64,000 bases of DNA from Patagioenas fasciata (lineage: Eukaryota > Chordata > Aves > Columbiformes > Columbidae), in the NCBI RefSeq assembly GCF_037038585.1, contig NC_092541.1, positions 3,035,445 to 3,099,444 on the forward strand, read 5' to 3'. The notes below the pieces were generated by a model. That model made no database searches. It saw nothing but the letters and a program-made list of their open reading frames with translations, and had not been told where the DNA came from. Each line of letters starts with the position of its first letter. Position 1 is the stretch's first letter. A program made the position numbers and the translations under genes. Shown in pieces: positions 1,581-51,415 of the stretch.

Positions 1581-1602
1581 TAGGCAGTTTCATGTTGTTG
1601 GG
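1581..1602 (-). promoter_or_regulatory. HOXB8: miR-196 cleavage site in HOXB8 3'UTR
   Basis: The 22 bases are complementary to the mature miR-196a encoded at 23277-23298 over their whole length, with one G:U wobble (miRNA position 5) and no mismatch. The plus strand begins TAGGCAGTTTCATG and the miRNA begins TAGGTAGTTTCATG. HOXB8 is the classic vertebrate mRNA cut by a microRNA through such near-perfect pairing, so the function is established for the family. The pairing is read directly from this sequence. Confidence 0.95.
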
Positions 1603-2081: not shown

Positions 2082-3590
2082 TTATTTCTTGTCCGCCTTC
2101 TGTGCTTCCCCTTCCTCGTCCACCTCCTGGGCTCTTTCCATTTTCTGTTTTTCCAGTTCTTCCTGCTCGCATTTGCTGCTGGGAAACTTGTCTTTGTTGT
2201 TTTCCTTTTTCCATTTCATCCTCCTGTTCTGGAACCAGATTTTGACCTGCCTCTCTGTCAATCCCAGGGCATGCGAGACCTCGATCCTCCGTTTGCGGGT
2301 CAGGTAGGGATTAAATAGAAATTCCTTCTCCAGTTCCAGCGTCTGGTAGCGGCTGTAGGTTTGCCTCCCCCTCCTCCGTCCAGCGGCTGCTGGGGAATTG
2401 CAAAGGTTGGGTGGAAGAGGGGAAGAAGAGAAGGAGGTTGAGAGATACATAAACCAGGCTCGGGAACAGGCACAGACACGGTCACACACACCAAACACAC
2501 TCACACGCACCAAACACACTCACCAGGCGCATTCACACACCCCAAACACTCGCAAACACACACGGGCACGGGAGGGGTGGGGGGGGAAAGAAAGGACTCG
2601 CAGGAGCAAAGGCAGGAAGCAAAGAGGGCGAGGGAAAGGCTGCTGTCGGATATCAGAAAAGGGAAGATGGTTATAAAGGAAAGGGGTGATGGTGGCAGGG
2701 GAGGGGAGGGTCACCCACTCCGAGCAGCCCAGCTAAAGCCTGCACTTGCACACTTATTATTACCCGAACCACCACCACAACAACAGACTCCGGCACTTTG
2801 GGATCAGGGGTAAAAACAACAGAACTGCAGCCCGGGGAGAGCGAGAAGCAGCCCCAGCGAAATCCCAAATCAAACGCCAAACAAAAATGAAGGGGCTTTT
2901 TAAGGCTATAAAAGTGCCATAAACTTTAAGGGCGCTTCCTTCCACAGAAAGCCCGGCTCGCTCAGCCCCCAGAAGAAAAGGTCTCCTTCAGGGTAATTAA
3001 ACTATAAAGCAATTTACAAGTGCAAAAGTTTACCCCCATAAAGCAGTAAAATACAGTCACTGGGGAAGAAAAAGAGAGGGAAAGCAAGCAAGAGGGGCAG
3101 AAAGCAAAGCAGAGGGCCACTCTCTGGGCTGGGGAAATGCCTCTCGCTGTCCTTTCCATCTCGGCTCACCTTGCGGTCGCATCCAGGGGAAGAGCTGGGT
3201 CGGAGAAGGGCTCTGCTCCGAGCTCTCCGGCTCCTCGCCGAGGCCGCTGGCAGCGAGCTTGCAGTCCGTGTACTGCACCAAGTCCGAGTCCTGCGCGCCG
3301 AACAGGCTCTGCCTTTGCAAGGGGTCGTAGCCATAGAAGTTGCTGGGGTCCCCATGGCACGCCACGGCGCAGGGATTCTGTTGGTAAGGGGAGCTGGAGA
3401 GCGACGATGCTCCGTGGTAGAACTCCTGGATTTGGGTGGGGTGCTGGAAGGTGCCCCCCGTGCTGGGTCCGTACACCACCGTGGGTCTGCCCCCCAGATC
3501 CTGAGCGAACCCGCAGTCATAGTAATTGGGACGCAAGGAGTCTCCGGTTTTGTATTTGGAGAAGAGTGAGTTGACGAAATAAGAGCTCAT
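2082..3590 (-). CDS. HOXB8: HOXB8 homeobox transcription factor (two exons)
   Basis: Join on the minus strand: exon 1 3590-3170, exon 2 2389-2082, 242 residues (human 243). Exon 1 starts [16 protein letters not shown], the typical Hox8 N-terminus, and ends just after the hexapeptide FPWM (residues 134-137), which contacts PBX. The donor reads CAAG|GTGAGC. The acceptor reads CCCCAG|CAGCC, restoring Gln-Ala-Ala-Ala-Gly. The homeodomain covers about residues 145-204, with recognition helix [16 protein letters not shown]. The tail is acidic/basic and ends KADKK. The residues that separate paralogs ([20 protein letters not shown] after the homeodomain) match HOXB8 rather than HOXC8 or HOXD8. It is a nuclear DNA-binding factor for posterior trunk and neural patterning. 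It is probably restrained after transcription by miR-196 (site in its 3'UTR). No break or odd residue is seen. Confidence 0.98.
2390..3169 (-). other. HOXB8: HOXB8 intron
   Basis: A 780-bp intron with GT...AG ends, interrupting the gene between hexapeptide and homeodomain as in other Hox genes. It holds a CACA-rich stretch at about 2475-2570 and otherwise nothing recognised. Confidence 0.9.
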
Positions 3591-11861: not shown

Positions 11862-14800
11862 TCATTCTTTGCCCTGTTCCTTGTTCATTTTCTTCATTTT
11901 CATCCTTCGGTTCTGAAACCAGATTTTGACTTGTCTCTCACTCAGGTTGAGAAGTCTGGCCACTTCGTGTCTACGGTCCCTCGTCAGGTACATATTGAAT
12001 AAAAACTCCTTCTCTAGTTCCAGGGTCTGGTATTTGGTGTAAGGGCATCGTTTTTTCCGGGAGGAGCGGGCGTGCAGCCAGCTGGCAGCTGGGTTGGCTG
12101 AAAGAGAAGCAGCGAGATCAATACGATGCAGCTTGAGTGTTTCTCAGAAGGTTTTAATCATGCCATCAAATATTAAGGTTATACATACGCATATGCACGC
12201 CCGGCTGAAAAACGCTCCCGCCCCAGGAGTGGGCAGAGGCCGCACCGAAATCACACGGGAGCTGCAGGTTGTGCGGGGGGGCGATCCCCAAATACCAGCG
12301 CACCCCGTCCCTGCGCGGGGGGACCCGGGACCCGCGGGTCTGTGTCTCTGCGCTCGCGTGTTTCCCGCACACGCGTGTCCGTGCACACCCGTGTCTCCTG
12401 CACACGTGTGTGTTTGGGTGCACACTTGCCACTGGCAGACCGCCCCCCCCGGCTTTTCCCCGGGTCCATCCGTGCCAGGTAAACACCCACACGCACTTAT
12501 AGATTTGCATAACTCCCATCTGCACGTTACACTATATACAAAGAAACCAATGCATTTCTTTTTTCCCTTTCCAGACGTGTTTTCCCACGTGTCTACAGAT
12601 TTACTCCTATAGACACATGGCGCAGGAACAGAGCAGAGAGCGGGGGTCTGGAGAAACCTTTCATAAATCCTGCCTATTTTTTTTGCTATGTGGCAAGAAC
12701 CGGTCTCCATCTAATAAACATCCTCTGAGGGCTGGGTGGACTCTGCTGCCGGAGGTCTGGACAGTGTCACCCAGACACACGGACATTTGCAGAGCTGCAA
12801 ATGCAGCCCAAAATAAATAACAGGCTGCCTGTCACCCTCGCGTGTGGGAGAAGTTACGTGGGAATCTGTTGCAAAAAGGACATTTCAGGAATTGGCCTGT
12901 TCAAGGGGGGGTGGGAGAGGGAGAAAACAACATTTTGGGAGCACAAACCCAGCTCTATACACACGATAGTGGTGAAGGTCGCACCCAAAGGTGAAGTGGG
13001 TTTAGGGTAAATAATAGAGCATTTACTAATCACATGCAAATATTAGCTGACCGTTGGGGAACTGAGAGGCGGGAAAGAGTAGAATGAAGGGTTATAGACA
13101 GACCACGTATTTCTATTTTATTTCCTTTGCCTCCTCTGAAATTATGACTGAAACCATAAACCTTTACTCCAATTAAATGGACCATTATAAATATATACAT
13201 ACACATGCGCGCTTGCCACCAGAACGTTTCCTCTACGTAAAATGAAATATATTGAATATATTCTTAAAAATAATCCGGTTAATCTTCCCCTGTAAGTACT
13301 GCCTCTTACAAATTTGCACGGCTATTTCCTTAATGTAATTGACTTGATCTAATATGCAGAATTAAATATTAAAGAGGAAGAAAGCTGTTAATAATTGATA
13401 CTGTTAATCCTGCTACCCATCCTTTAATGGCAATGGAGGGCTGTGCTTCAGAACACATTTTTATTCGGTTTGGGTTTATTTTTCTGTCATATCTTGGATC
13501 GTTAAAGTATCAGATATTTTAAACGCGGATGTTGCTCTATCTGTTCTCTATACACAAATCCCTAAACAGGAAAGCGAATGGGAAGAGCTTCTGGCACATG
13601 TTTTCTTGAAAACCCAGCAAATAAATTAACAGATCCCTGTGCCATGCACAGGGCGGAGATTCGTTATTGCGAAATACTTTCAAAAATTGAAAGAGTCAGG
13701 GAAATTGGTGGGAGCACTTTCTGCACAACAGCTCCGTCTTCCAGCCCTGGCAACCTCTCAACATCAGCCCAAATTAAACTATTATTTAAACCAAAATATG
13801 CCTCGTAACCGCATGCCATAGAAACCACACAGCATCCTCTTAGCGCGGGTCCCTGCACTTACTTATAACTTAACAACGTTTTCTTGGACAAGATTTTTAT
13901 ATATTCAATTTCAGGGACATTGAGCACAGAACCTGGATATTTAATTCTCTCAAATCATTCACCTCACGGTTGCAGTTTGTTCTGGATCTCTGCCCAGTAC
14001 AATAGAACAGTGCTTTCTTTTTGTGTGTGTGAGTGTGTGTGTGCCTGTGTGCAAGTTAAATGATAGGGGGGGAAAAAAGTCACCATAACATCCCGCTCAA
14101 GGAGGGGAGGAAGTAATGAGGGGCGAGAATATACTGTATTTTTAATCGTATGGTTGCAATGGCAAACTCTGTTGCTGCTCCACGTTGGAGGGCGGGGGGG
14201 GAGTGTGGAATTAGAAGTTAATTCAAGGGGAAAAAGAATGAAAGAATGAGTGTGTCAGGCGTCCAGCACAGAGCCGGGGGGTTCCAGCCTCTGCCGGGGG
14301 GAAACTTCGCCTTCCTCCGCAAAATATTGACCGAGCGGGTGAAGCCAAGTTTCCCTCTCTGCCTCCTGCCCGCTCACCTTTCAGCTGGAAACCAGGTACC
14401 AACCGGCTCACCACGGGGTGAAGATACCGATTATTTCTTACTCAAACGCCATCGCATTATTAGCATTATTATTATTAATAATATTATTAATAGCATTATT
14501 GATAGCGTTAATAAATATTTTCAAGGTGAATTATTTTACTTTCTATATTTCGGGGGAAAAAATAAAAACAACCAACCAAAAAAAAAAACCGCACAAAAAA
14601 AACCAACAAGCCAGCTCGCCGAAAAAGCACATGGTGAAGTTGAACTGTTTCCCCAATCTGGCTACATTGCAAATAAAAGCTAATTAAGTTGGAAGCACCC
14701 CCCACCCCGCCTTTTATTTTATTTTAATTTTTTTTTTTCGAGGAAGGAACGTGGCTTTGAAATATTCACACCCTGCACCGTTGCATTTAATAAACACATA

Positions 14801-20138: not shown

Positions 20139-21906
20139 AGTCAGGGAACAGAAATCAAATCTCAGCATAAAGCGATCATAATTTATGAATGATGCATTCA
20201 GGCAAGTCTGAGAGGTTTTGAAAGAAACTTCAGTCACGGCTCCCTCCAAACGCACGAAAGCGCACCAAAAAATCCCTCCTGAAGAGCAAAACCTTCAAAA
20301 ATAACAAATAAAATATATTTTTTAAAAGTTAAACAAGTTTCTGTAGCTCAAAAGCCGAAGGATCTACCTTTGCCATTTCCTGTGCTAGCGCTCAGTTTGA
20401 ATGCTGCCGTCTGTTAAAAATCCGTAAGTGCTGAGGAGGGAGGGGGGGGGAATTCCTTGTCTGGAGAGAAGCAAAAACAAGTTACACATGTGGGCAATTT
20501 TCCAAGAACCGAAAGTATACCCTGGCTTAAAATCCCAAGTCCAAATGAGGTTTGTAATCTCAGCAGTTAATAAAGCATTCAGATCCCCTGTAAAGTAAAA
20601 GCGTATGTGCATTTGAAAAGGGAAACTGGAAGGAGAGAAAGTTAAAATAAAGTTTAATTGTAGTTCAGGAACCCACTTTCTGGCTACTAGACTGAGTCCA
20701 CCCCCCCTCGCCTCTCTTCTTGCAATAATATTCCGCTCCCATGCAATAACTGGGCGCTCGTCCCGCCCCGGCTGCCGCGGGTTTTACACCCGGGAGCTGC
20801 TGGTGCAACGGCTGCGGATCCCCCGGCTCCGCTTTGGGGTCACACGGTAGAACTGAAGTGTCCCCCCGAAATAAAGAAACCAAAAATCGTCCAAATCGCA
20901 TGAGTCTGGGAGGAAGTAACAACCCATGATGGTGAGAAATCTGTCGCTGCCGCTCCAGGCAGGGGAAGAGGGTGGGAAAATACAAGCACAGGTACAAGAA
21001 TTAAGTTGCGATATAATTGTTTCCATGAAACCCCTACCATGAGCGCCGGTGAAATAAAAGGGGGAGTTTCTTTCGGGTAGGCTCTTTTCACAACACTTTT
21101 ACCCGTAATTAAAACTCATCCCGGGTCGGGGTGACACCAGACAGGCTGGACCCGGCAGAAGAGCAACTTGGGGGAAATTTGTTGCATTAAGCGCAGTTGC
21201 TCGTTGCCTGGGAGCGCAGAAATGTGCAGCGTGGCGCAAACCAGGCAGTCACTACGCGGAGGACAATTTTGTAGCCACCACACACACAGCTTCTTTTCCA
21301 GGTAAGGTCTCTCTTATCTCTCTAATTTGGAAAAGAAGAGAAACTAACGCTGCAGCGGCAGCCGCGCCTGAGGGACAGGACCCTGTGCCACCGCACCCTC
21401 CTCTCCCAAAGCCTTGGGAAATGAGCCCCAATTCCCGTTTTCAGGCAGCAATACAGACCCCCTGGGCCTGATTCTGATCTTTCCCAGCTCTGTGTCCCCC
21501 ATTCTCCTCCCTGACTCTTGTTTCCTGTATTTACGTGGGTAGGAGGGAGATCAAAATCAGAAGCCCAGACATTTACAAGGCAGGTTAGTGGTTGCCTGTG
21601 GGGACATTATTACTGGATAGTTTATGATTAACTTTCCCAGATTGTCCTTTTCCGTTTAAGGGCTTTGAGTCAGGGCACAAGCACCACGTTGTTTCTCGGG
21701 AACCACAAGGCTTGCGGGTTAGACGGAAAACTCGGAGCTGTTTTACGCTGTTTGACTTTCCCTCTCCTCCCCTTGAGCGGCTGTTTGTTTTATAGGTGCG
21801 ATAGGCGCTATGGCTACAAGAATCCCCACATTCGGGAATAAAGCACGTACCAGTTTAAAACCCATGCAAGTTTTCTGTTTATTTGTTTTCGTTTGCTTTT
21901 AACACT

Positions 21907-21920
21907 CCGAGGAGGGGCAG
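21907..21920 (+). promoter_or_regulatory. Weaker CTCF-like motif
   Basis: CCGAGGAGGGGCAG agrees with CCGCGNGGNGGCAG at 12 of 14 positions. It lies between HOXB9 and miR-196a. Low confidence without occupancy data. Confidence 0.25.
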
Positions 21921-22889
21921 GGAGAGGGGGGAATCCTGAAATCCAAGTAATTCTTTCGGCCACATAAAGTAGCAGCAGATGGTGATTTAGACCCTGGATA
22001 TGGTATCAAAGTTTAATTCCTTAAACCTCGAAGTGAGATCCAGTCCCAGGCAGATTTAGCCGTGGCCTGGACCATGTGGAACTTGGTTTTATGCGTATTT
22101 GAAACACCGGTGCTGGGAAAATCGCCTCCATGAACTTATTGCTCACGCACCCAATTCTGTTTGCAGAGAGTGGACCGGGTGGACTCCATCTAGGCACACA
22201 CTGACACTCGGGGCTCTCCGCTCTCCCTCGTTCTCACAAGGATTTTTTATGTTTTAAATCGGCTTATTCCCACGTGTAACACGTTGAGATACGGAGGAAG
22301 GATGTGGTGAAACTATTGTGGCATCTGACACCACCTAATCCCTTTTATTCCGTGAACTTTGCAGCCGTTGTCCTCGCCCAGGTTTGTCTGAAGGTGTCAT
22401 ATTTGATGAACTTAGAGCCCAATGCCCAGCAATGAACATCAGCCGCGTATCTGTGCGCGGTTACATGCGTACATACCGCGGCTTGGCACTGATCAGTCTC
22501 TAAGGACGTGGGCGCGTTTCCTACGAGGAGCAGGAGCTCCTCGGGGACTGAATATTCAATGTTTAGCAGGTATGGCTAAGTTCGGCATTTTTACCCTCAG
22601 AGGAAAAGCCGCAGAGACTCGGTCCCTATAAACATTGCCAGCGAAGCGACAAACGCCAAGCGCTGCTGAGACGTGCAGCACGGCCTTTAATAAACTTATT
22701 GTTTCAATGGGGACAATTAAACTCATGAGCTGGACACAGTCCTCATGTGCTCCTTAAACCCGCGTTTTACGCTTTACACCGAGTAGATCCCAGCTACTGA
22801 AACAAGACAGACTTTTTTTCCTAGCTCTGTGTGTATTTATAGGTGTAGAATTTTATGCGAGACACCAACTTTATTGCGCACCCAGAGGG

Positions 22890-23200
22890 GTTTGATAGCG
22901 CGGGGCCGCAGTCGCTGGGGAGCGGGGGATTCAGCCTCTGGAGGCGCCGCAGCCTAATTAGACCTTTAATAAGCTCTTGATGATTCGGGGCGTGACTGCG
23001 CTGTCTCGCAAAAGGTCCCTGAACCGGGGACTGAAACAAAGAAAACATCAGCCCTGCCCCGGTGCTGAGCGGGGCCCGGGGGGGACACGGCCCCGGGGGG
23101 ACACGGGCCCGGCGGCTCCGCGCCCGGTGCCGGGCGGTCCAGGGGAGGGAGGGGGGTCCAGGGATGTCGCCCCCTTCCCCATCCCTCCCGGGGCTAAGTG
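22890..23200. promoter_or_regulatory. CpG-rich patch beside miR-196a
   Basis: A GC- and CpG-rich block immediately 3' (in miRNA sense) of the hairpin. No coding exon is supported. It could be regulatory for a plus-strand transcript crossing the hairpin. Confidence 0.4.
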
Positions 23201-23234
23201 CCCTCAGCAAACTAGAGCGAGGAGGATAACTGGA

Positions 23235-23305
23235 GTAAATCAGGTAGTTTGATGTTCTTGTGTTTAAAATTAAAAGCCCAACAACATGAAACTACCTAAT
23301 TCACA
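23235..23305 (-). ncRNA. MIR196A1: miR-196a precursor hairpin
   Basis: On the minus strand the 5' arm at 23277-23298 is identical to mature miR-196a as I know it (starts TAGGTAGTTTCATG, ends TTGTTGGG). The A at position 12 excludes miR-196b. The 3' arm at 23241-23262 pairs with it over about 28 bp including the stem base, with only three or four mismatches and two wobbles, around a loop of about 14 nt. Its position 5' of HOXB9 is the conserved place of mir-196a-1 in vertebrate HOXB clusters. It is a Dicer substrate whose known targets are Hox8 and neighbouring Hox mRNAs, and the HOXB8 site is present in this window. The host primary transcript and its promoter are not visible. Confidence 0.97.
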
Positions 23306-23361
23306 GAGCAGTTCTAGTTCAGCCTTGGGTCAAAGGCTACAATTCCCAAGAAAGGCGCCTG

Positions 23362-23376
23362 GGCGGCCATTTTGTT
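23362..23376 (-). promoter_or_regulatory. YY1-like site upstream of miR-196a
   Basis: The plus strand contains GGCGGCCATTTTG, matching the YY1 core GCCATNTTG, about 60-70 bp upstream of the hairpin in transcription sense. Function is inferred only. Confidence 0.3.
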
Positions 23377-26130
23377 TGACATCATCTGCAATCTGAACTT
23401 TTATAATAGAAAACAGTTGCTAGGAAACAAAAGCAACAAAAGGATCTTTTCAGAGACGGAATAAAACCCCTCCGATTGCACGAAATGACTATTCAAATGA
23501 TTTCCTATGTACAGTGTCTGGAGCGGATCCCTCCTGCAGGACTTTACAAATAGTTTACAAATAGACCAGAGGAAACAGTAAAATGCTATTGACTTTGAGA
23601 AACAAGCGATTATCGCAGCCATAAAAAAGAGCAAAAATTCCTAAAGTTCTTCCCTCACCTCCTCTGGAAAGCTCATTTGAAGGGTCGTTTCTGATAAGAA
23701 TCTGATTTATCAAGACTTCCTATTAAAACGCTATTACAAGATATTTTTTTCCCTTTTAATCAAGACCCACCAGCAAATCAAATCAGTGAGTTCCGGGGAA
23801 AAAAGCAAGTAATTCATATTCTCCTCCCCTGAAAGCAAGTATATCTTGGATCGCTTAAGGAGAATAAAATAAGCCACCACAACTCCAGAACATATAAATC
23901 AATTAAAGCAAGAGGGGGGAAAAAAGCGTCGTTGTGACTATTTGATAGGTGTAAATAGCAACACAGAGAAACGTATTGTGTCCTTTCCTCCCTCCAAGTC
24001 GCTCCCCGAGCTGGAAAAGCGGGTTATAAAATAATGAGTGGGGGAATTAAAGGCGAGGGGGCGTCCAGGCCCCGGGGACTTTGCTGAGCTCCAAGCGGCT
24101 TCCGAGAGGGAAGTTTGGCAGGGAAAAAATACAATAAAATAAAATTTAAAAAGAAAATAAAAGAAAAAGAGAGCGTATCGGGTCAGGTCACAAACCACTT
24201 ATGTATCCATTTTTTTATATATGGAATATAAAGTCAATGTCTTACCTTGTAAGCTGGGGGGTTGTCCTCAAGTGGACTAAATAACTAAGCAGGGTGAGCA
24301 AAAGACAATGGGCAGAGATAGTCCCGTCCCAAAGGGCAAGTTTAGGGGAGTTTAAAAGTTCACCGAAGAAACAAAACCTCCGAGTTCAAGAGGCGCACGG
24401 CGGAGCCAGAAACTTGCCTATAACTTAACTTCATTTCGTTTGAAAAGCCTTTAAAAGCCTGGACGGGACGGTGTATAAACGGATGGTGCCGGAAATACAA
24501 TAAAACTGAGCCATGTTGTTGAACTTCAAACGCTTTGCAGCAGGTCGGGCGGGAGACGGGGCGGAATCCGAAAACAAACAAACAACCCACCCAGAACAAC
24601 CAGCCCTCGAAAAACCAAACAGCCCCTTGGAAGAGAGCGGAGGGGGGAGTTTTTGGGGGGTAGGAGGGATATTGAGAGCTTGGGGGTTGTTTGCGGGTTT
24701 GTTTTGTTCGAGGTCAGAGCTCTAAGTGCACGGAGGGAGGAAAACATCGCCTGATTCCGCATGATAGGCTGTAATTGGAAATTAATAGAGGTTTCTTATT
24801 ATTTCACAATTAATATTTTCTCTTTCCTTTTTTTTTTTAATACGCAAACATTAGCAGGTTCAAGTTTAAATCAAACCTAACTTAAAGTCTAGAATAAAGC
24901 TTCAATTATGTTTATGCATGAATGACCTATAATATTCCATATTCGTAGTTTGTATGTGCCATATATGTTTGCAGGCATGTGTATGTACAATCTGCGGTAC
25001 TTATATGTAGCACACCTATCCTAATTCTAAAATTTGACGAATGTTTCTTATTTCCCACAAAGATATTTTAAAAAACCCTTCAGAGCTGCTGTTTTGCTTT
25101 TCATGCCAATGCAATTTGTATAAACCAAAGTGGTAGTCGCAGTTGAACTCATCCTAAAAGCACTTTCTTGCAGACAAAAGAGGCAGCAGGAATATATTTT
25201 AACCGGGTTTTCACTGCTACAACGTGGAAATGAGGCCCCCTCCGCCCCCAAAGTGCAAACTGCAAACATAAAGCACTGAAGATAAGCATGAAAAACAAAC
25301 CCGCAGATGCCATTTAATGTCACGATTCGGTTTAAAACAATATTAAGTGAAAAATAAAGAAGAGGAAAAAAAATAACCCCAAATCTAAGTAGGTTTAATT
25401 CTTGGGCTGGAGCAACGTTCTAAGGTAATGGGATATTTTTCCTCCCCTTCTGGCTGTTTCTAAAGTTTTAAAAGACGTTTTCAATTCAGACGTCAAAGAC
25501 AAGTTAGAGCTCTTAGGCAGTAAATGGATGTCTGAGCTGTAAGATAACTTCTGCTTGTCAGGGGAATAAGTGCTAAAGTAATTAATAGGCTTGGATGGGA
25601 GGGATTTCAAGTGTTTGCGTGAGCATATATCAGTAAATGTATATATGTGTACATATCCATTACACACACTCTTACATAATAGAAGAATCTATTACAGATC
25701 ATCCAAGAGAATGGATGAGATCTCAAGATCTCATTATGGGTTTCTTTGTGACTTACTTAGATCTTCACAAAGCGGTATTTTTATTAAAATATGGTTATAG
25801 CAGCTGGTTTTCACAGTTCCCATTCATCACCATTGGCCTTTGGGAGTATTTGGTGTCTGCTCCTCAGGACTCACGCAGATATTCCCAAGCAGAATACGTT
25901 ACAAACGGGAGGTGCTTGTCGCATTTATGGGAAAAAGATTAAAAAGTAGCCCTTAAACCCTCCTCCTTCCCTCCCCCTGCACACGGCTGTGCCTGGATGG
26001 GAGTGGGAAACAGCTCGGCGTGGGCTCTTTCTCTCTTTTTTTCCAGCTATCCATCAAGCCAAAGGACATAACAGTAACGCACACAAAACTGCGCTGTGAT
26101 ATTTCTTAACCACCCATCGCCAATACATAT

Positions 26131-50011: not shown

Positions 50012-51415
50012 TCACGGGGTGTTACTGCTGCTGCTGCTTTTGATTTTGGCGACGACTTTTTTCTCTTTCACCCGCCTGTTCTGGAACCAGATGGTGATCT
50101 GCCGCTCCGTGAGGTTGGTGGCGGCGGAGATCTTCCTCCTTTTGTCGCGGGTGATGAACTTGCTGCTGGCGTACTCCTTCTCCAGCTCCTTCAGCTGCCC
50201 CTTGCTGTACGGGACCCGCTTCTTGCGGCCCCGGCGGAAGGAGCAGCCGTCGGGGGGCAACTGTCCGGCGGAGTCTGGGCGAGGGGAGAGATGGGGCTGA
50301 GCGGGGAGACCCCCGCACCCTGCACCCGCCTCCCGTCACCTTGGCCCTGCAAGCAACACCCTCCTGCCCTGCCACCCCACTTCTTCCCTCCATCCGCCCT
50401 GACAGCGAAGATATTCAAAGATATTTAAGTTATATATTCTCTCTATTGATGTTTGAAGCTTATTTTGCTTATTTAGTTTGTTTTGTTTTGTTTTGGGGGG
50501 GGTGTTTGTTTGTTTGTTTGTTTCGTGGAGAAATCCAGGTATCGGCAAAACACCGACGTGGGGAGCCCCGCACTTATACCCGCGTACTCGCTCCGCGGTT
50601 TCAGCGTCGTCGGTGCGCGACCGGCCCGAGTCCAGTCCCACCGGCGTGGCCGATGTGGGCCAGCTCACAAACAAGTGTTACTGCTCAGAGCAGCTCCCCA
50701 GAAGGTTGTTTTAAGCCTTGGTCCCACCCTCCCCCTCCGCACGATGGACCCCCACACCCCACGTCCCCTCTCCCAGCCCTAGCGCAGGGACTTTACCTGT
50801 AAAGGCGGATTTCAGGAGGTAGCCGGCCTGGCCCTGCTCCTTGGGGCAGCACATCTGGCTGCTCCAGCCGCTGCCCAGAGCCCACGGCTGATGGTAACCG
50901 TCCACGGGCAGCAGCGTCTCATGCCGGGCCTCCCCCGGGCCCCCCAAGCCCGGTACCACCGACACGTCCAGGTAACCGGCCACGGGCTGGTACGGGGCCC
51001 CGTAGCCGGGGTAGAACGCGAACTCGGCGGGGCGGCTCTGGAAGTCCTCGCTGCCCGCGGGGGGGTCCAGGTACTTCTCTGCGGGGAAGGGGCCCTGGGC
51101 CGGGCCGGCTTTCAGGGCGCTGCGGGCGACGCGGCAGGAGTAGTAACCGCTGCCGAAGTAGCCGTAGGGCAGCGGGGCGGAGGCGGCGGGACCCGGCGGG
51201 GCGGCCGGGGGCGGTGGGGCGGCGGGACACGGCTTGGGCGGCTCGGCCGGGCCCTCCGGCGGGTAGCCGGGGTTCATCCCGGGGGGAGGCGAAGGACCGC
51301 TGAGGGCCGAAGGGGGAGGCGGCAGCAGCCCCCCCCTGCCCTGGCCGCCTGCGAAGCCGCCGGCTGCCAGGAGCCCCTCGAGGCCCGGGGGGCCGCGGGG
51401 CTCCGGGGGCTGCAT
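50012..51415 (-). CDS. HOXB13: HOXB13 homeobox transcription factor (two exons)
   Basis: Join on the minus strand: exon 1 51415-50797, exon 2 50274-50012, 293 residues (human 284). The start [20 protein letters not shown] aligns with human MEPGNYATLDGAKDIEGLLG. Then follows a long Pro/Gly/Ala-rich stretch and the Hox13 N-terminal domain signatures [36 protein letters not shown] and WSSQMCC. The donor ACAG|GTAAAG and acceptor GCCCAG|ACTCC restore a split Asp codon ([13 protein letters not shown]). The homeodomain at about 220-279 has [20 protein letters not shown] and recognition helix [16 protein letters not shown]. As in all Hox13 proteins there is no PBX hexapeptide. The C-terminal tail has five Ser encoded by AGC/AGT repeats. 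The family acts in the nucleus in tail-bud and posterior patterning and ends axial growth. The whole coding region is a CpG island. An in-frame upstream ATG (51574) is rejected because it overlaps the CCAAT box. Confidence 0.97.
50275..50796 (-). other. HOXB13: HOXB13 intron
   Basis: A 522-bp intron with GTAAAG donor and CCCAG acceptor. It contains a (TTTTG)n/G/(GTTT)n composite tract at 50477-50523 and a GC-rich right half. Confidence 0.9.
50477..50523. repeat. (TTTTG)n-G-(GTTT)n composite simple repeat
   Basis: Pentanucleotide, homopolymer G and tetranucleotide tracts in series within the HOXB13 intron. Likely length-variable. Confidence 0.8.

Follow-up and report, generated by a model that had tools for sequence, protein, structure and literature searches.

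A HOXB-cluster miR-196 hairpin of Patagioenas fasciata whose opposite strand repeats the miR-196 seed, probably as a by-product of stem symmetry

The window, by which we mean the whole 64-kb stretch of Patagioenas fasciata DNA analysed here, lies on a 9.48-Mb contig (C29), and the own genome searched comprises 1.45 Gb in 359 contigs. The window is the posterior HOXB region, with its Hox genes on the minus strand. The frame at 11865-12143 has Hox-A9 and Hox-C9 as its top solved-structure matches, and is therefore assigned to group 9. A mir-196 precursor is placed between this group-9 homeobox and HOXB13, roughly 11 kb upstream of the former and likewise on the minus strand. The features on this strand are the following.

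2085..2519, minus strand: homeodomain frame, which we take to be HOXB8 from gene order and the miR-196 site
11865..12143, minus strand: group-9 homeodomain frame, by position that of HOXB9
50015..50335, minus strand: homeodomain frame of HOXB13, with Hox-B13 as its best solved match
23232..23307, minus strand: mir-196 precursor, HOXB copy (Rfam RF00256, 78.2 bits over the full model, 1-77; z -6.31)
23277..23298, minus strand: mature miR-196a on the 5p arm, an exact 22/22 match
23241..23262, minus strand: 3' arm of the sense hairpin, CACAAGAACATCAAACTACCTG, which faces mature miR-196a in the stem
1581..1602, minus strand: miR-196a target site CCCAACAACATGAAACTGCCTA, located downstream of the stop codon of HOXB8 and pairing at 22 positions, 21 of them Watson-Crick and one G:U

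The precursor is presumably miR-196a-1, given its position, and is the sole Rfam match above cut-off in the 64-kb window: read from 23307 to 23232 it scores 78.2 bits against a gathering score of 55.4 bits for RF00256. By score, mature sequence and location between the group-9 Hox gene and HOXB13, the minus strand is thus a full member of the family. The hairpin also resembles mir-5697, mir-3047, mir-548 and other families, in each case below the cut-off of that family, and these matches were dropped as reflections of a near-perfect stem. Folded over 96 nt (23222-23317), the minus strand reaches -32.6 kcal/mol (z -6.31), and none of 200 shuffled sequences is as stable. Within the sense duplex 18 of the 22 pairs are Watson-Crick, the rest being U.G at position 1, C.C at 11, G.G at 17 and G.A at 21. 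In a lizard, a variant named mir-196c lies between HoxB9 and HoxB13, according to an excerpt of PMC9498476.

Exact copies of mature miR-196a were found twice in the own genome, on contigs C2 and C29, and from bird chromosome numbers we take the C2 copy (locus L001) to be that of HOXA. An outer helix, AACUG/CAGUU, lies beneath the main stem of both copies (window 23222-23317, minus strand; L001 1491-1586) and is a flanking structure common to their sense primary transcripts. A HOXC copy is expected from other vertebrates; none was seen in the own genome by exact-copy search or by a family search that scored 59 of 229567 candidates, and it may be unassembled. Nucleotides 1-21 of mature miR-196a have no exact match in the viral contigs and none in the prokaryote contigs.

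The opposite strand of the same hairpin holds three further features, all of them relating to RNAs that are hypothetical.

23241..23262, plus strand: hypothetical antisense 5p RNA, identical to miR-196a at 18/22 positions, with seed positions 2-8 at 23242-23248
23232..23307, plus strand: hypothetical antisense precursor (46.7 bits, below 55.4; z -4.16)
23277..23298, plus strand: full complement of miR-196a in any plus-strand transcript, forming the 3' arm of the antisense hairpin (22/22 Watson-Crick)

The plus strand at 23241-23262 reads CAGGTAGTTTGATGTTCTTGTG and differs from mature miR-196a, TAGGTAGTTTCATGTTGTTGGG, only at positions 1, 11, 17 and 21, while the seed AGGTAGT (positions 2-8) is identical; position-wise comparison thus bears out the 18/22 agreement and shared seed that a sequence-only reading of this DNA had pointed out. 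The same comparison indicates where the likeness comes from. The antisense base equals the sense base exactly where the sense pair is Watson-Crick, so that the antisense strand resembles miR-196a because 18/22 stem pairs are of this kind and the seed is free of G:U pairs. Four non-Watson-Crick pairs placed at random among 22 would spare the seed with a probability of 0.187, which makes the shared seed unsurprising. A common antisense seed follows from a Watson-Crick stem and by itself gives no evidence for a second microRNA, or for anything beyond a good stem. It is moreover common to both strands only when the 5' end of the antisense RNA falls at exactly 23241.

We therefore consider it probable (roughly 0.8) that this is an ordinary HOXB-cluster miR-196 gene, and that the "second miR-196" of the plus strand is a by-product of the symmetry of its stem. 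The gene shares the strand of the Hox genes, and its 5p product would repress mRNAs of Hox and other genes, in part by cutting, as at the HOXB8 site, activities that are established for the miR-196 family. Read as its reverse complement, the 3' arm repeats the 5' arm through the Watson-Crick stem, and should the plus strand be transcribed across the locus, an antisense product may be made in small amounts. A dedicated antisense function is presumably absent. The symmetry itself is real and its cause ordinary, any antisense function being hypothetical.

The plus strand does fold. Over the same 96 nt (23222-23317) it reaches -27.3 kcal/mol, with 0/200 shuffles as stable, so that the hairpin forms on both strands (z -6.31 minus, -4.16 plus). 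This strong fold, relative both to shuffles and to the antisense strand of the HOXA copy, counts against a mere by-product. Scored as a mir-196 precursor, however, the plus strand reaches 46.7 bits and falls short of the 55.4 bits of RF00256; the cut-off is reached on the minus strand only, which counts for the by-product. The proposal that the plus strand yields a 5'-arm microRNA of the miR-196 family accordingly survives in part: the strand folds and its 5' arm carries the seed, but the hypothetical RNA stays below the family cut-off.

Processing signals also differ between the strands. The preferred place of a CNNC motif is +16 to +18 past the cut. With the predicted 3' cut set by a 2-nt overhang, the sense strand has CNNC motifs starting at +4, +14, +15 and +17 within 30 nt, and the antisense strand has only one, starting at +20, and none at +16 to +18; the sense motif at +17 and the lack of an antisense counterpart favour a by-product. 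The predicted antisense 5p begins with C, and its duplex end is the more stable (-4.6 kcal/mol, against -1.3 for 3p). Under the asymmetry rule a more stable 5p end favours use of the 3p arm. The sense duplex has the same bias (-5.6 and -1.4 kcal/mol), yet the miR-196 family uses 5p; since the end energies predict 3p on both strands, evidence from duplex ends is weak.

A CpG-rich stretch at 22801-23250 (GC 0.60, CpG observed/expected 0.74) adjoins the hairpin, upstream of it for the plus strand; the window has 24 stretches of this kind in all. In the interval 21000-26000, poly(A) hexamers (18 plus, 11 minus) are too common to be informative.

The HOXA copy provides a comparison within the same genome. 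It scores 81.4 bits on the sense strand and 31.6 bits on the antisense strand, and its sense fold (-32.9 kcal/mol, z -4.79) is like that of the HOXB copy. Its antisense 5p departs from miR-196a at six positions (1, 5, 12, 15, 19 and 21), giving the seed AGGCAGT, and its antisense fold (-19.7 kcal/mol, z -1.14) does not stand out, 24 of 200 shuffles being as stable. G:U pairs make up 6/31 of the HOXA sense fold against 2/29 in the HOXB copy. This higher content likely explains the poor HOXA antisense fold, because each sense G:U becomes an A.C mismatch on the opposite strand. A testable contrast is the useful residue of this comparison: the antisense strand of the HOXB copy folds, while that of the HOXA copy is indistinct from shuffles.

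In the Rfam consensus, only three of the 22 antisense 5p positions (1, 5 and 21) disagree with miR-196a, the difference at seed position 5 arising because the consensus has G opposite U5. Near-symmetry is thus a trait of the family, in keeping with a by-product. The G.U at seed position 5 of both the consensus and the HOXA copy is missing from the HOXB copy, and this loss counts on the other side. The sequence-only reading had described the 3' arm of human mir-196a-1 as diverged in this part, and this proved correct: the hsa-miR-196a-1-3p sequence is in print (excerpt of PMC8499475), and the antisense RNA derived from it has the seed GGGTGGT and differs from miR-196a at positions 1, 2, 6 and 11. 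Among the three hairpin arms compared (window, HOXA, and human as printed in that excerpt), the seed AGGTAGT is found in the window alone, and it is also not that of the Rfam consensus, so that the HOXB copy is in part unusual. The idea of an antisense seed conserved in amniotes was dropped, given that the printed human arm disagrees.

Antisense microRNAs are an established kind, as excerpts of the literature indicate. Drosophila iab-4/iab-8 is likewise a Hox-cluster hairpin whose antisense 5' arm resembles its sense 5' arm (excerpts of PMC2884542 and PMC3290615), and in Ciona antisense products are apparent at 44/380 predicted loci (excerpt of PMC2884542); both Drosophila products were detected and the Ciona ones are based on reads, whereas the pigeon product is a prediction from sequence. 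By these excerpts, miR-196 and iab-4 are unrelated in sequence. Among vertebrates, an excerpt of PMC3272019 (section 20) describes eight putative antisense microRNAs in mouse cardiomyocytes, including miR-30e-as, "notably similar" to its sense partner miR-30e, so that an antisense microRNA resembling its sense partner is not a new idea for vertebrates. Unlike the pigeon RNA, miR-30e-as was detected by PCR and among small-RNA reads, its level in the heart biopsy dataset being about 4% of that of miR-30e (same excerpt), and it comes from a non-Hox locus. The pairs miR-214/miR-3120 and miR-24-1/miR-3074 also arise from both strands of one vertebrate hairpin, but the seeds of miR-24-1 and miR-3074 differ (excerpt of PMC7357559), whereas the predicted seed is the same on both strands at the miR-196 locus.

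Evidence on transcription points both ways. In excerpts of PMC1831499, mammalian Hox clusters show widespread antisense transcription (section 7), and the human transcript carrying mir-196a1 and HOXB7-8-9 runs on the Hox strand (Table 1); an excerpt of PMC8293171 places the human antisense RNA HOXB-AS4 in the interval from HOXB9 to group 13, where the table prints HOXA13. Hox antisense transcription and the position of HOXB-AS4 count against a by-product, and the Hox-strand human transcript counts for it. Pieces of 14 nt from the antisense RNA or from the window's 3' arm are printed in none of the open-licence papers searched, a limited negative that also favours a by-product. Excerpts of the bird miR-196 papers PMC3585881, PMC2375912 and PMC9876980 contain nothing on an antisense product. 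The names "miR-196b-as" and "miR-196a-AS" do occur in print, and were rejected as antisense microRNAs, as they designate oligonucleotides (an inhibitor and an in situ probe).

At the HOXB8 site a G stands opposite U5 of miR-196a. The hypothetical antisense RNA would keep this seed G:U and add mismatches at positions 1, 11, 17 and 21, and the predicted duplex energy would go from -36.4 kcal/mol with miR-196a to -20.3. The earlier expectation that the antisense RNA could not cut HOXB8 and would repress it by seed pairing only is thus plausible in its first half, owing to the mismatch at 11, and implausible in its second: repression through the seed is doubtful because the G:U at 5 leaves no canonical seed match there. 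At ACTACCT sites the two RNAs would act alike.

A functional antisense microRNA would be a 5p RNA from the plus strand that bears the miR-196 seed, represses canonical miR-196 seed sites and spares HOXB8 from cutting, like iab-8 beside iab-4. If real, it would constitute a vertebrate Hox counterpart of that pair and a simple route to repress miR-196 seed targets without HOXB8 cutting. The plus-strand hairpin with its miR-196 seed, the position-11 mismatch and wobble seed at HOXB8, and the iab-4/iab-8 and miR-30e-as precedents (in the excerpts cited) are all consistent with it, as is the CpG-rich stretch directly 5' of the plus-strand hairpin, though that is only one of the 24. Set against these are the sub-cut-off Rfam score, the 5' C and more stable 5p end, the lack of CNNC at +16 to +18, and the absence of the seed from the HOXA copy, the consensus and the human arm as printed. 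We regard such a microRNA as possible yet unsupported, and on balance unlikely. A more specific version, a lineage-specific dual-strand HOXB miR-196 gene, would have gained a canonical antisense seed with the lost G.U at position 5, while the wobble seed and central mismatch would spare HOXB8. In that case, transcribing the plus strand would uncouple HOXB8 cleavage from the seed repression of other miR-196 targets; we judge this the least probable of the readings.

A plus-strand RNA, if it exists, might instead be a target rather than a source, being cut by miR-196a or soaking it up at 23277-23298. The 22/22 Watson-Crick pairs fit this, and a parallel is given by the RTL1 mRNA, targeted by microRNAs from the opposite strand (excerpt of PMC6805670). 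On the other hand, every RNA transcribed antisense to a microRNA necessarily contains such a site, and this one falls inside the plus-strand hairpin. We regard this reading as very unlikely. The reading of an ordinary miR-196 gene with an incidental antisense likeness thus remains the one we prefer.

Sequences close to the miR-196a complement also occur elsewhere. A coding exon on contig C4 (L006 1501-1522), which we take to be TBC1D1, holds CCCAACAACATGAAACTGCCAA, two mismatches away from a full miR-196a complement, one of them a G:U at 5; this match may be due to chance. Only 2/22 positions set the HOXB8 site apart from the 3' arm of the Rfam mir-196 consensus, and a G lies opposite U5 in each. 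The star arm of miR-196 therefore resembles the best target of the family, which would fit an origin from target sequence duplicated in inverted orientation, or simply the complementarity that the two have in common.
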